NCBI RefSeq assembly: GCF_000025525.1
Contig: NC_013887.1
Span: 1,498,729 to 1,562,728 of the forward strand
DNA length: 64,000 bases
Origin: Methanocaldococcus sp. FS406-22
GTDB lineage: Archaea; AGJL01; Methanococci; Methanococcales; Methanocaldococcaceae
Direction: 5' to 3'
This document shows positions 8,395 to 52,932 of the stretch, piece after piece; position 1 is the first letter of the stretch; every line of letters begins with the position of its first letter. The notes beneath the pieces were generated by a model that saw only the letters and a list, made by a program, of their open reading frames with translations, ran no database searches and was not told the DNA's origin. The translations under genes and the position numbers were made by a program.

Positions 8395-8833
8395 GAACAA
8401 AATATTTATATATGAGTTTGTCGATATTTTTTGATTGAGATGTTTTTAGGTGTTTATTATATTGTTGTGTTTGTCTCGTTGAATAGGCTTGGAATCTGAT
8501 AAGGGTAATAATTATTGTTTATTATCTTGTTTAGAGGATTTAAATTTAATTTCTAATGGTCTGTTGGTTTAATCATTTGGAATATTTAGGTTTATTAAAT
8601 TATTTAGATTTTTAGAAGTTAAGATTAGATAGTAAGTCAAATAAAATTTCTCCAACTAATAAGTTAAATCTTCAAATTTAGAAAGATAAGAATACTCAAT
8701 TTAACTAAAAGAGAAAGATTTAAATATCAGGGGGTTTATAAATAAAGACAGTTATCTATACTTAGAAAAATATAGTGTCGAAAAGTATATATATTAGAAG
8801 AATAATAAAAAATAGGTTGAGAATGATTGCCCT
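8395..8833 (+). promoter_or_regulatory. CRISPR array 1 leader
   Basis: About 440 gene-free bases directly before the first repeat. It is homologous over about 400 bases to the leader of array 2 (15290-15694): shared words include GGAATATTTAGGTT, AAGAATACTCAATTT, AGATTTAAATATCAG and the last bases GATGATTGCCCT or GAATGATTGCCCT before the repeat. CGAAAAGTATATATATTA at 8779-8796 looks like BRE plus TATA, placing the transcript start about 20 bases before the first repeat. Confidence 0.85.
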
Positions 8834-10241
8834 GTTAAAATAAGACCGATTCGGTATGGAAACCTTTTAATTTCTCCATCAACTCTTCTCCACATTCTTG
8901 TTAAAATAAGACCGATTCGGTATGGAAACTGTTATCCCTCAATCCCAATATCTGGACAAAGGAGTATATAAGTTAAAATAAGACCGATTCGGTATGGAAA
9001 CGAGTTCATAGGACCATGAGGGGGGCAACTCCTTGGGCAGTTAAAATAAGACCGATTCGGTATGGAAACTGTATATCATAATTACAATTCCAATAATCAC
9101 AGATGAAATTAGGTTAAAATAAGACCGATTCGGTATGGAAACTTTCACTCAATAAACTATCTATCTGTATTGCAATCTCCATATCATCGTTAAAATAAGA
9201 CCGATTCGGTATGGAAACCTACTTCTTAACCTTGAGCTGAAGCTTCTATGTCTGGTTAAAATAAGACCGATTCGGTATGGAAACACGATTGTGTGTAATG
9301 AACTAAATTGCAATTACAACAAGTTAAAATAAGACCGATTCGGTATGGAAACACATACTCTAAGAGATTCTCTAAGTCATTGTGATAGTTAAAATAAGAC
9401 CGATTCGGTATGGAAACATTTTCACACAATATAAGCAGTTCTTTCATTTCTTGTTAAAATAAGACCGATTCGGTATGGAAACGTTTTTACATCGATACAA
9501 GTAAGGTCTGAATTATCGTTAAAATAAGACCGATTCGGTATGGAAACTAAATCTTGTCAGCTCCTTTTAACTTTACATTTAAATCAGTAGTTAAAATAAG
9601 ACCGATTCGGTATGGAAACTCCACTTCTTTCTTAACAGTAATAGAAGGTTTAAGTTAAAATAAGACCGATTCGGTATGGAAACCTCCTTTGTCATTTATT
9701 ACTCTAATTGTTCCTTTATGGTGTTAAAATAAGACCGATTCGGTATGGAAACAAAAAAACAGATTACATCGTTCAAGAAATCATCAAATCTTAGTTAAAA
9801 TAAGACCGATTCGGTATGGAAACTATTATTATGATGATAAATACACAATAAACTTGGACAGCTCGTTAAAATAAGACCGATTCGGTATGGAAACTTTTGT
9901 TGAAACTCAACAACACTTAAATATTTTGGTCTGTTAAAATAAGACCGATTCGGTATGGAAACCTGCCAATGCCTATGCCTCAAATACCTATGCCACAGAG
10001 TTAAAATAAGACCGATTCGGTATGGAAACGTATCAATGACGACTCTCATTTCTCCTTCTTCTGCAGTTGCTGTTAAAATAAGACCGATTCGGTATGGAAA
10101 CATATTATTAGTTTTTGCCTTTGGTGGTTTAAAATTAGTTAAAATCAGACCTCTTAGAGGATGGAAACCTGGTAAATGCTTTTCTATAAACTTTATGATG
10201 TCTACAAATTGTTAAAATCAGACCTCTTGGAGGATGGAAAT
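8834..10241 (+). CRISPR. CRISPR array 1: 21 repeats, 20 spacers, chimeric
   Basis: Nineteen 30-base repeats beginning GTTAAAATAAGACC, with a CCGATTCGG palindrome and ending ATGGAAAC, start at 8834, 8900, 8972, 9040, 9113, 9189, 9255, 9323, 9388, 9453, 9518, 9590, 9654, 9723, 9794, 9865, 9933, 10000 and 10072. They appear identical. Spacers are 34 to 46 bases. The last two repeats (10138-10168 and 10211-10241) are a different 31-base type beginning GTTAAAATCAGACC with a CCTCTTAGAGG palindrome (second copy has TTGGAGG and ends GGAAAT), the type used by array 2. The ATGGAAAC end would be the crRNA 5' handle. No cas gene lies in the window, so Cas proteins must act in trans. Confidence 0.98.
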
Positions 10242-15289: not shown

Positions 15290-15694
15290 TTAAGGTTGAG
15301 ATTATTGTAGTAGTTTATTGTAGTGTTGTGGTTGTCTCGTTGGATGTGTTTGAAATTTAATAAAGGTAATAATTATTTAGTATTTGTTAATTTAGAGGGT
15401 TTTTATTTGATTTCTAAGGGTTTGTAAGTTTGATTATTTGGAATATTTAGGTTCATTAAATTATTTAGATTTTTAAAAATTAAGATTGAATAGTAAGTTA
15501 AATGGGATTCCTCTAACTAATAAGTTAAATTTTCAAATTTAGAAAAATAAGAATACTCAATTTGATTAAAAGGGAAAGATTTAAATATCAGAAGGTTTAT
15601 AAATAAAAGGTGTCATCTATACTTGAAAAAATATGGTTCCGAAAAGCTTAAATATTAGAAGAGTGATTAAAATTATATTGTCGATGATTGCCCT
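15290..15694 (+). promoter_or_regulatory. CRISPR array 2 leader
   Basis: Gene-free AT-rich DNA ending GATGATTGCCCT directly before the first repeat, homologous to the array 1 leader over its whole length with scattered substitutions. CGAAAAGCTTAAATATTA at 15640-15657 corresponds position for position to the array 1 promoter-like box. Confidence 0.85.
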
Positions 15695-16071
15695 GTTAAA
15701 ATCAGACCTCTTAGAGGATGGAAACATGTAGTGATAAAGAAAGTCCATGACAAAGACGTTATCAAGTTAAAATCAGACCTCTTAGAGGATGGAAACTTTC
15801 TGACAAGTTAGCAAGTATCGGGAGTAAGTCCATGGTTAAAATCAGACCTCTTAGAGGATGGAAACACACACTACTAAACTTGTTTATATCTGTTGTAAGT
15901 GTTAAAAATAGTTAAAATCAGACCTCTTGGAGGATGGAAACTTAGTTGTAATATAATATTTTTCAATGTTGCAATTGTAGTTAAAATCAGACCTCTTGGA
16001 GGATGGAAACTAAAATAACAGATGATTTAACTAAAGTAGTAAATGAAAGTTAAAATCAGACCTCTTAGAGG
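15695..16071 (+). CRISPR. CRISPR array 2: six repeats, five spacers
   Basis: 31-base repeats beginning GTTAAAATCAGACC, with a CCTCTTAGAGG palindrome and ending ATGGAAAC, start at 15695, 15766, 15835, 15911, 15980 and 16049. The fourth and fifth carry TTGGAGG in place of TTAGAGG. The sixth (16049-16071) is cut after the palindrome and lacks the ATGGAAAC end, a typical degenerate leader-distal terminus. Spacers are 38 to 45 bases. Same orientation as array 1 and about 5.4 kb from its end. Confidence 0.97.
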
Positions 16072-17801
<1,730 letters not shown>

Positions 17802-48674: not shown

Positions 48675-49199
48675 TTGAATATGAAGGAGATTTTTCAAAT
48701 ATTTTCTTTGATGTATTTGTTATTTTTATTTATTGGATTCCTAATCATTTCAAAATTTGATATCTCCTTATCTTTAGTATTTTTCTTTCCATGCATTTTC
48801 TGGATATGTTGGGCAAAAATAAAAAGAGAAACATGGGATATACCAAATAGAGAAAATAGGCTAATTCCTTTAATCTTTACTTTAGTTTATTTGTCAATGT
48901 TGGTAATATTTTGGAAAAATATCTTTATAATAATTTTCTTGGTTAATGTTTTTGTAATTTTAATAATCACAAAATTTTGGAAAATAAGTATGCACAATTA
49001 TGGGTTATCTGCTATGGCTTATCTCATATATGCTTTCACAAACGATATTTGGCTATCTGTTCTATATTTAACATTAGTTATTATTACTGGCTATGCAAGA
49101 ATATATTTAAAGAAACATACATTTTCTCAAGTTATCGCTGGAACCATATTGGGAATTTTAGTTAATTACATTTTATTAAACCTTATTTGGGTGAAATAA
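48675..49199 (+). CDS. PAP2-superfamily membrane phosphatase
   Basis: 174 residues, about six helices. [20 protein letters not shown] and [19 protein letters not shown] match the SGH and R-x5-HxxxD regions of PAP2 lipid phosphatases, though the last Asp is Gln (HTFSQ), so catalysis may be altered. TTG 48675 fits GGTGA at 48665-48669 (the previous stop); ATG 48681 is the alternative. The final TAA overlaps the displaced tyrA start copy at 49199. Confidence 0.7.
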
Positions 49200-49297
49200 T
49201 GAAAAATAAAAATCTAACAATGAAACTTTTAAAAAAGTTTCATCAAAATTAACAAATCATAATGAGGGGTATTTATGAAAAATAAAAATCTAACAAT
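49199..49297 (+). repeat. Hairpin module flanked by a 23-bp duplication of the tyrA start
   Basis: ATGAAAAATAAAAATCTAAC plus AAT occurs at 49199-49221 and again, identically, at 49275-49297, where it is the tyrA start. The 53 bases between begin with ATGAAACTTTT/AAAAGTTTCAT (11 perfect pairs, 49220-49243) followed by CATCAAAATTA. The first copy has its own GGTGA site but runs to a stop. The same hairpin plus CATCAAAA recurs at 52235 beside another gene-end duplication. Confidence 0.7.
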
Positions 49298-50615
49298 CTC
49301 AATTATTGGAGGGACTGACGGTTTAGGAAAGTGGTTTGCAAGGTATTTAAAAAATAGAGGATTTAGGATAATAGTTACTGGAAGAGATATTGAGAAGGGA
49401 AAAAATGTTGAGAGAGAGTTAGGAGTTGAATTTTTAAATAACAATGTTGAAGCTGCTAAAAAAGGAGATATTGTCATTGTAGCAGTGCCTATAAATGTTA
49501 CAGAGAGGGTTATAAAAGAGGTAGCCCCTCATGTTAGAGAAGGATGTTTATTAATGGACATAACCTCAATTAAGGAGATTCCTGCAAAGACTATGGAGGA
49601 GAATGTTAAAGAGGGAGTAACTGTTATTCCAACCCACCCAATGTTTGGACCTTCAACCCCTTCTTTGTTGAGGCAGGTTGTTATTCTCACACCGTCTGAG
49701 AAACATAAAAATACTGAGTGGTTTAAGAAAGTTTATAATTTTTTAAAGAGAGAAGGGGCTAAGGTTATAGTTATCCCTCCAGAGAAGCATGATAAAATTA
49801 TGGGGGTTGTTCAAGGTTTAACTCACTTTGCATTCATTTCTTTAGGGGCAACATTAAAAGAACTCAATGTTGATATAAAAGAGTCGAGGAAGTTTGCCTC
49901 CCCAATATACGAGTTGATGATTTCCATTATTGGAAGAATTATAGGGCAGAATCCTTATCTATATGCGGACATCCAAATGTTTAATCCAAGGATAAGAGAG
50001 ATTCATGAAGCTTTTATAAATCAATGTAAGGAAATTAGTGAAATTGTCAAAAATAAAGATAGGGAAGGTTTTGTTAAGATAATGAAAGAAGCTGCAAAGC
50101 ATTTTGGTAGTGAAGCAAAGAGAGGAGCTTATTATTCAGATAAAGCTGTCTTTGCATTAACCTCTGAAATTGAAAAGCTGAATAAGCTCATTGGTAAAGA
50201 GATAGCTGTAAAAAATATAAATTCAAATAACATTCATTTCGGAGTTTTAAAGGATATTGAGGACGATTATTTAATATTAGATAAAAATGGCAAAGAGCAG
50301 AGGTTCAATATTTTAAGGGTTGAGGTATTTTCTGGAGAGGAGTTAAAAGAACTAAAAAAGAAACACTTAGAGAGAAAATATATAGATGTGTCTGTTCTAT
50401 TTAAAAAAGATGTAGATGTGAGAGTTATTTTAGATTTATTAAAAAAGGTGTTTGACATTGAGATAATTGATGTTTATGAGGGAGATAAAATAGAAGAGGG
50501 ATATAAAAGTATAACATTTAGAATTTATGGATACAGTAAGGATGAGCTAAAAAATATAGAAAAAGAATTTTTAAATATAGTTAAAAATATTGGTGGAAAA
50601 GAAAGATTCAAGTAG
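49275..50615 (+). CDS. tyrA: Prephenate dehydrogenase-like protein
   Basis: 446 residues. ISIIGGTDGLGKWFARYLKN is the NADP Rossmann motif; then PTHPMFGPSTPSLLRQ, QGLTHFAFISLGATL and a helical dimer domain near residue 280. Long C-terminal part (about residues 300-446) resembles a regulatory, ACT-like domain. Tyrosine synthesis from prephenate. GGGG precedes ATG 49275. A displaced copy of its first 23 bases lies 76 bases upstream. Confidence 0.88.
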   Translation: MKNKNLTISIIGGTDGLGKWFARYLKNRGFRIIVTGRDIEKGKNVERELGVEFLNNNVEAAKKGDIVIVAVPINVTERVIKEVAPHVREGCLLMDITSIKEIPAKTMEENVKEGVTVIPTHPMFGPSTPSLLRQVVILTPSEKHKNTEWFKKVYNFLKREGAKVIVIPPEKHDKIMGVVQGLTHFAFISLGATLKELNVDIKESRKFASPIYELMISIIGRIIGQNPYLYADIQMFNPRIREIHEAFINQCKEISEIVKNKDREGFVKIMKEAAKHFGSEAKRGAYYSDKAVFALTSEIEKLNKLIGKEIAVKNINSNNIHFGVLKDIEDDYLILDKNGKEQRFNILRVEVFSGEELKELKKKHLERKYIDVSVLFKKDVDVRVILDLLKKVFDIEIIDVYEGDKIEEGYKSITFRIYGYSKDELKNIEKEFLNIVKNIGGKERFK

Positions 50616-51735: not shown

Positions 51736-52116
51736 TTATTCTCTTTTTTCAGCTGCAACTATAAGTAACATTCCAATTAAATCTCCTTTCTTCACTTCTC
51801 CATCAAACCCACATGCAAACATTGCCATATCAACTTCTCTCTCAACACTTATAGGCATTGGCACTTCCTCCCCAACAGCTACAACATGTCCAACTCTATG
51901 CCTACCGTAAGGACAAATTAGCAAAACGGACATTGGAGGGATTTTAATCTTCTTAATTCTTATTGGCTTTATATCCCCCTGCTTAAATTCCATATCCTCT
52001 TCAGCAACTATTGGCTCAATTTTTGCTTCATTTTTAATTATTAAATCACACTTTACTTCTTCTTCTTTAATCTTCTTTTCTATTTTAGTCATTCTTCCAA
52101 GTATCCTGAATACCAT
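51736..52116 (-). CDS. DUF22 family protein
   Basis: 126 residues. KIKIPPMSVLLICPYGRHRV, GHVVAVGEEVPMPI and DGEVKKGDLIGMLLIV are DUF22 features; the lipoyl/barrel-sandwich-like end suggests ligand binding. Function unknown. GGTGGTG precedes ATG 52116. Lies just downstream of the atpD duplication. Confidence 0.75.
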   Translation of the reverse strand: MVFRILGRMTKIEKKIKEEEVKCDLIIKNEAKIEPIVAEEDMEFKQGDIKPIRIKKIKIPPMSVLLICPYGRHRVGHVVAVGEEVPMPISVEREVDMAMFACGFDGEVKKGDLIGMLLIVAAEKRE

Positions 52117-52160
52117 AAACACCACCAAAAAATAAAGATATTTATGGTTTATTTATTCAG

Positions 52161-52351
52161 TTATACTGCTTCTTCCTCGGCCTCTCTCTTTTCGATTCTT
52201 GATTTAATTAACTTCAACCTGAAGAAGTTCCCCCTGCAACTTTTAGAAAAAGTTGCATCAAAAATTATTTATAAGTTTTTATTATACTGCTTCTCCCTCT
52301 GCTTCCCTCTTTTCGATTCTGGACTTAATCAATTTCAATCTGAAGAAGTTC
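52161..52351 (-). repeat. Duplicated atpD 3' end around a hairpin module
   Basis: 52282-52351 is the true 3' end of atpD (last 23 codons plus stop). 52161-52230 is a second copy, 61 of 70 bases identical, still readable as [21 protein letters not shown] and stop. Eight of nine differences are synonymous; the ninth makes E for G. Between them: TGCAACTTTT/AAAAGTTGCA (10 pairs, loop AGA, 52235-52257) then TCAAAAATTATTTATAAG. The same arrangement (copy, hairpin, CATCAAAA, copy) occurs at 49199. Confidence 0.78.
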
Positions 52352-52932
52352 TCTCTCTCCATCTCGTCCAATCTCATGGAGATGTATTTCTTGAGAGATT
52401 TTAATCTTGGAATGATAACATATTCTAAAGCGTTGACTCTTCTCTTTGTGGTTATAATCTCTTCAGCTAAGAGTTTGATTGATGTCTCTATTTCTGCCAA
52501 TTCAGTTATTAATTCCAAAGCTTCTTCAAACTTCTTAGCCGCTTCATCTAACTTTGAGCTAACTCCGTAAGGAGAGTAACCTCTTTCACCAACCTTTCTT
52601 CTAACGTTGTATATCTCAAAAGTAGGAACAGTAACACCCATAATATTCTTAGTATCCATATCTACCTCTAATTTGTCATTCTTTGCAGCTAAGGAAGCTT
52701 CTTTAACAGCTAAAGTTCCCATAACTGTTTGAGCCATTATTAAATCTTTGTATGCCTCAGCTAACTTTGCCTCAACTTTCTCTCTTAAATCTGAAGCTTG
52801 CTCTATAATTTGGAAGAATTCCATAATTAAAGCATCTCTTTTCTGCTTAAGTAATTTATGCCCCTTTTCTGCCAATTTAATTTTATTTTTTAATTTTAAT
52901 AATTCCATTCTTGTTGGATTCACTCTCTGCAT
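52282..52932 (-). CDS. atpD: A1AO-type ATP synthase subunit D
   Basis: 216 residues: coiled-coil central-stalk subunit ([40 protein letters not shown]). Couples rotation of the membrane rotor to the A3B3 head. The C-terminal 23 codons have a diverged duplicate downstream. Other atp subunits are not in the window. Confidence 0.94.

Follow-up and report, generated by a model that had tools for sequence, protein, structure and literature searches.

In the window, a stretch of 64,000 nucleotides from the 1.77-Mb genome of Methanocaldococcus sp. FS406-22 (G000), the 3′ end of atpD occurs twice, on the two sides of a short hairpin repeat. This repeat inserted with duplication of the atpD end, and we consider it probable that the two copies were then exchanged with each other and with alleles of other strains. 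Repeated exchange at the hairpin insertion accounts for more of what was observed than a single imported gene end.

Duplication of the atpD 3′ end

The features of the locus are collected in Table 1. Beyond the stop codon of atpD and a 51 bp spacer, the final ~75 bp of the gene occur again (copy A); the end within the working gene is copy B. The segments 52161–52230 of A and 52282–52351 of B are identical at 61 of 70 positions (87.1%), with nine sites different, and the repeat extends ~5 nt deeper into atpD, which gives 75 nt with 85% identity. Chance likeness is excluded by the BLAST E value of ~4e-20 between A and B and by the homologous duplications in four other species. The insert is common to five of the 14 Methanocaldococcus species compared (G000, G001, G004, G007 and G013), all of which show a rare TGCAAC/GTTGC hairpin in the same arrangement and a distance between the atpD copies of ~51–140 nt. 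These five cases are one shared insertion and hence not independent. The nine other genomes of the genus have a single-copy, uninterrupted atpD, the empty site of the insertion.

Table 1. Positions in the window of the atpD locus and of a second, similar element
Feature	Position	Strand	Remarks
atpD, A/V-type ATPase subunit D-like, 216 aa, working gene	52282–52932	−	ORF and translation; orthologues in 14/14 genus genomes
Copy B, atpD 3′ end within the working gene	52282–52356	−	52282–52351 in the earlier note; homology extends to 52356
Copy A, displaced second atpD 3′ end with its own stop codon, without start or upstream gene	52161–52235	−	
Inserted spacer with palindromic element	52231–52281	−	absent at nine single-copy atpD; found in G001, G004, G007, G013
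Right-end module TTTTGATGCAACTTTTTCTAAAAGTTGC of the repeat family	52236–52263	−	folds as DNA at −9.8 kcal/mol, z −4.3
Palindrome TGCAACTTTT/AAAAGTTGCA, 3-nt loop	52235–52257		inside motif TTTTGATGCAACTTTTTCTAAAAGTTGC on the atpD gene strand
Stray copy of the start of gene 49275–50615 (ATGAAAAATAAAAATCTAACAA), with upstream region 49173–49198	49199–49220	+	direct repeat D5
Second element, right-end hairpin TGAAACTTTTAAAAAAGTTTCATCAAAA (read on +)	49221–49248	−	folds, z −4.4
Duplicated gene start now serving gene 49275–50615	49249–49297	+	

The second element of the window lies within direct repeat D5 (49173–49221/49249–49297, 78% identity). The same insertion is present in G004 and G001 (multi-hairpin) and decayed in G011, and its empty site is found in G002 and G009. 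Further empty sites in relatives occur at argF, argD, the aconitase-swivel gene, cbiF and the genes of loci L063 and L066. At tRNA-Pro, the site is empty in G010 and G012, G006 carries the insert together with a 25-nt duplication (GTTCAAATCTGGGCAGGCCCACCAC), and G005 and G009 retain decayed versions of the insert. Because of these empty sites, the elements are insertions with a duplicated target.

The window also contains CRISPR arrays at 8821–10240 and 15684–16078, with repeats GTTAAAATAAGACCGATTCGGTATGGAAAC and GTTAAAATCAGACCTCTTRGAGGATGGAAA.

The hairpin element and its family

The palindrome in the atpD spacer folds better than shuffled sequences (z −4.3), and its right-end motif defines a family found in ten of the 14 genus genomes, with zero occurrences in backwards controls. 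Stem variants carry compensating changes (TGAAAC/GTTTC, TGCAAC/GTTGC and TGAACC/GGTTC). The right-end hairpin mostly terminates a longer hairpin chain, e.g. (T)TAAGAGGCATTGC..GCAATGCATCC, GGACATTAATTGGGGCTGAAAGCCCCAACTTAATGGACGAG, or CCATAGGGG..CCCCTATTGGTATACC; the atpD element is a much reduced member of this multi-hairpin family. A known RNA family was rejected as the identity of the element, as the Rfam matches on the loci comprised only an adjoining tRNA, in 15 loci. The exact 28-nt right-end motif also lies between genes in two IMG/VR viral contigs (L244 and L245), with no obvious link.

Hairpin modules turn over among genomes with near-identical flanks, including a loop inversion (GGTGAAACC/GGTTTCACC). 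Around G005:916784, the four genomes G005, G006, G009 and G010 share near-identical flanks, but hairpin modules are missing or different, and one loop is inverted between G005 and G009 (GGGGGTGAAACCCCC/GGGGGTTTCACCCCC). L208, L229 and L230 (G005, G009 and G006) have differing modules and one inverted loop between near-identical flanks. Such turnover would fit breaks or strand switching at the hairpins.

To describe flank duplication across the family, we compared the DNA to the right of each hairpin with that to the left of the element, and a copy was accepted when it started at ≤6 nt with a score of ≥18. A copy of the left flank directly follows 52 of 100 right ends (31 of 65 independent loci), compared with 0.66 right ends expected from mismatched pairs. 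The aligned copies at these 31 loci are ~20–80 nt long, and about half of the family copies have no detectable duplication. The duplicated targets include the ends of protein genes (atpD, argF, argD, cbiF, a ribosomal L39e-like gene and archaeal ATPase genes), gene starts (the aconitase-swivel gene and the gene at 49275 of the window) and tRNA 3′ ends; the target gene names were read from translations and are tentative.

The tRNA 3′ end is duplicated from the T-loop GTTC onwards, and nearly all of the spare copies read GTTT at this position. The T of GTTT may stem from the end of the element or from the joining step. Spare ends with GTTT are spread over many tRNA genes (L071, L080, L116, L120, L125, L135 and L209, and further L211, L213, L214, L217, L220, L221 and L225). 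The tRNA spare copies decay in ordinary fashion, and many of the tRNA and gene-end cases look like ordinary target duplications that decayed later. In L130 and L132 (G011 C14 and C39), the flank duplication resembles a CRISPR repeat (AATTCAGACCTCTTGG... and AATTCAGACCGTTTCGG...), an insertion at a CRISPR array. Seven copies adjoin genes of one archaeal ATPase-like family ending in ...KPQSFLVWNAIKKLLNGH and stop (L082, L113, L115, L121, L129, L133 and the right side of L122), with the insertion point and the duplication nearly alike in L113 and L129.

Search for the enzyme that moves the element

We could link no transposase, integrase or endonuclease to the family, and neither an element body nor an integrase was found at any locus examined. 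The distribution of IS200/IS605 does not follow that of the elements, and we rejected it as the mover: the Y1 transposase occurs in G000 and G013 only, and TnpB is absent from the element-rich G003 and G011 but abundant in the element-poor G005 and G006. A helper role for the archaeal ATPase genes ending in LKPQSFLVWNAIKKLLNGH, which stand beside seven copies, was also dismissed, since this left-end module is also found beside other genes. No virus or plasmid with this atpD end was matched in phage and plasmid records.

Probable exchange of sequence between copies and alleles

Concerted local replacement is seen in the sister genomes G007 and G013. The body of atpD differs between the two at 2 of 580 positions, whereas B differs at 7 of 75 (excess versus the body, Fisher p 6e-6); A differs at 8 of 75, with a few differences in the spacer and one in the following 60 bp. 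Four to five changes are identical in A and B, among them AGG/AGA, TTA/CTA, AAG/AAA and GAA/GAG, and A and B resemble each other in each genome although the sisters differ in both. Independent mutations are very unlikely to have produced these parallel changes, so sequence passes from copy to copy and an allele from outside entered. A second pattern is seen in G000, where A carries the AGG..TTA..AAA..GCC haplotype and B the AGA..TTG..AAG haplotype; in G004 the places are swapped. Exchange, or a cycle of excision and re-insertion between the direct repeats, would produce such a swap. Taken together, the swapped haplotypes and the G007/G013 pattern point to repeated exchange rather than one import, and the sequence comparison suggests that both copies trade sequence with working alleles of atpD.

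The main alternative, which the earlier note had put forward, is that an integrating element carried its own gene end. Accordingly, B would have come from another strain, A would be the displaced native end, and the body of the element would have been lost except for the hairpin. Prophages are known as integrating elements that carry their own gene end. This explanation would account for A–B divergence at synonymous sites only, and for the start of the tRNA duplications at the T-loop, a usual integrase site (PMC8371274). It would also account for the placement of A and B of G000 in different allele groups, A with G006, G004-B and G005 (support 0.88) and B with G001, G004-A and G011 (0.93), in trees that were built on 69 bp and have weak to moderate supports of 0.56–0.93. 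A and B of G000 differ at nine sites, A differs from G006 atpD at seven and B from the G001 stray copy at five, so that A and B are not mutually closest in this genome and the refuting condition named in the earlier note does not hold there. However, B is not visibly foreign, because both it and the remainder of its atpD are nearest to G001/G004. Also against the import stand the homogenization of A and B in G007 and G013, the missing body or integrase at the loci examined, the lack of this atpD end in any phage or plasmid record, and the occurrence of one hairpin end at dozens of unrelated targets, unlike a site-specific integrase. The flanks were rejected as a marker of a foreign tract: the next gene of G000 (51736–52128) is nearest to G004 (91%), with G001 as the odd one (83%), and does not mark the atpD end as foreign. 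No donor of the replacing alleles was found among the genomes compared. An element is present at atpD, as the earlier note had proposed, and it is one of a family; that it carried its own gene end, or that one end was imported from another strain in a single event, is possible but less likely than repeated exchange.

Coding-like divergence of the spare copy

The A–B differences in G000 fall at codon positions 1, 2 and 3 in the numbers 0, 1 and 8, and correspond to eight synonymous changes and one non-synonymous change (GGA Gly to GAA Glu), which agrees with the earlier statement that the two ends differ almost only synonymously. Across G000, G001, G004, G007 and G013, 28 of the 30 differing sites are third positions (28 synonymous and two non-synonymous codons), compared with ~48% expected by our own estimate for a neutral copy with A unconstrained and B constrained (p ~1e-7). 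Between species, pN/pS is 0.063 for the spare copies and 0.035 for the atpD gene copies, with ~1 expected under neutrality. The value of pS is ~0.63 between species and 0.43 between A and B within a genome, which shows that A and B are partly homogenized. Third positions account for 69 of 105 differences in the remainder of the family, counted without atpD and after wrong-frame, tRNA and CRISPR rows had been taken out (p 2e-4), a weaker excess than at atpD. These counts support the view that spare copy A did not evolve as a neutral fragment and that both copies evolved in working genes. In this respect the earlier note was right, as both copies show the imprint of working genes. Exchange would rewrite the spare copy with working-gene sequence, so that almost only synonymous differences remain.

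In another alternative, the target site was simply duplicated, the spare copy then decayed neutrally, and the synonymous pattern is an accident of small numbers. This suits most of the tRNA cases, and also several loci where the differences fall at mixed codon positions. For atpD, we regard it as very improbable, in view of the 28 third-position differences out of 30, the low pN/pS among stray copies that differ at ~60% of synonymous sites between species, the parallel A/B changes in G007 and G013, and the third-position excess in the family without atpD. Similarly improbable is that selection holds the coding sequence of a functional spare copy (for example a reserve end for use after excision, or a regulatory or antisense target), which would agree with the low pN/pS and the presence in five species, but A is not read into from any start codon or upstream gene, atpD stops before it, nine species lack the copy, and exchange of the G007/G013 type accounts for the low pN/pS without function.

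Proposed course of insertion and exchange

In the favoured explanation of insertion and repeated exchange, a small palindromic mobile repeat inserted within the terminal 75 bp of atpD, either in an ancestor or in a donor lineage. The insertion left a copy of the gene end on each flank, so that atpD stayed whole (B) and a spare end (A) lies beyond the hairpin; this duplication may have arisen as a long staggered target duplication. Sequence would then pass between the copies, and between them and the atpD alleles of other strains, either by homologous recombination or by excision and re-insertion centred on the hairpin, and hairpin-induced breaks might drive the conversion with other atpD copies. 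More tentatively, non-coding hairpin elements could spread in a homing-like manner driven by some enzyme: a copy of the target gene end would be carried or created as a rescue, gene conversion would take place around the hairpin, and movement from strain to strain at the same site would swap the end alleles.

With these features, the insertion of short palindromic repeats in hyperthermophilic archaea gains a visible footprint, in the form of long gene-end and tRNA-end copies, and allele replacement around one such repeat spans only ~200 bp. The movement of the repeats becomes testable through strain sequencing. In addition, a duplicated gene end with silent changes only need not mean a lost prophage.

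Comparison with known systems

We compared the atpD element with four known systems. First, the mobile ORFs of fungal mitochondria carry the C-terminus of a gene (Allomyces atp6; Glomus atp6, atp9, cox2 and nad3), encode a homing endonuclease and bring a clearly foreign C-terminus (PMC3630166). As in these ORFs, the insertion lies in a gene end, a new end is fused, the native end is displaced downstream, and the ends at atpD differ by mostly silent changes. In contrast, the atpD element has no ORF, its copies are partly homogenized, and the spacer of ~51–140 nt in the five species leaves no room for a homing endonuclease. Second, IS1549/IS1634 generate long and variable direct repeats of 8–514 bp, for which no mechanistic model was given (PMC2266710). 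A long, variable target duplication at both flanks is likewise found here, but those elements are DDE transposons of 1.5–2 kb with inverted ends, and no such transposase is tied to the hairpin family: the ~26–250 nt between copies are too short for a transposase gene, and the left and right ends are in most cases not inverted copies.

Third, tyrosine recombinases integrate at the 3′ ends of tRNAs and genes, as in icd/e14 of E. coli. The restored target gene with a displaced partial end, and the T-loop boundary in tRNAs, are shared with such integration. However, the hairpin family has no integrase or body between the repeats, and one hairpin end motif serves many unrelated targets, gene starts included. 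In archaea, integrases target T-loops of tRNAs and also some protein genes (PMC8371274). None of the fungal mobile ORF, IS1549/IS1634 and integrase systems agrees with the hairpin family in full.

Finally, the family consists of multicopy palindromic repeats in Methanocaldococcus genomes, and it resembles in this the short palindromic repeats scattered through these genomes, the MJRE repeats of Suyama et al. (2005). Gene-end and tRNA-end duplications at MJRE, and their concerted replacement, were not mentioned in the literature searched. The hairpin family is probably identical to these M. jannaschii repeats, matched by description. Palindromic repetitive elements of M. jannaschii were described by Suyama, Lathe and Bork (2005, FEBS Lett 579:5281), according to the passages that cite this work in PMC2229807 and PMC2996958, and the relevant passage of the latter places some of these repeats inside coding sequence without breaking it.
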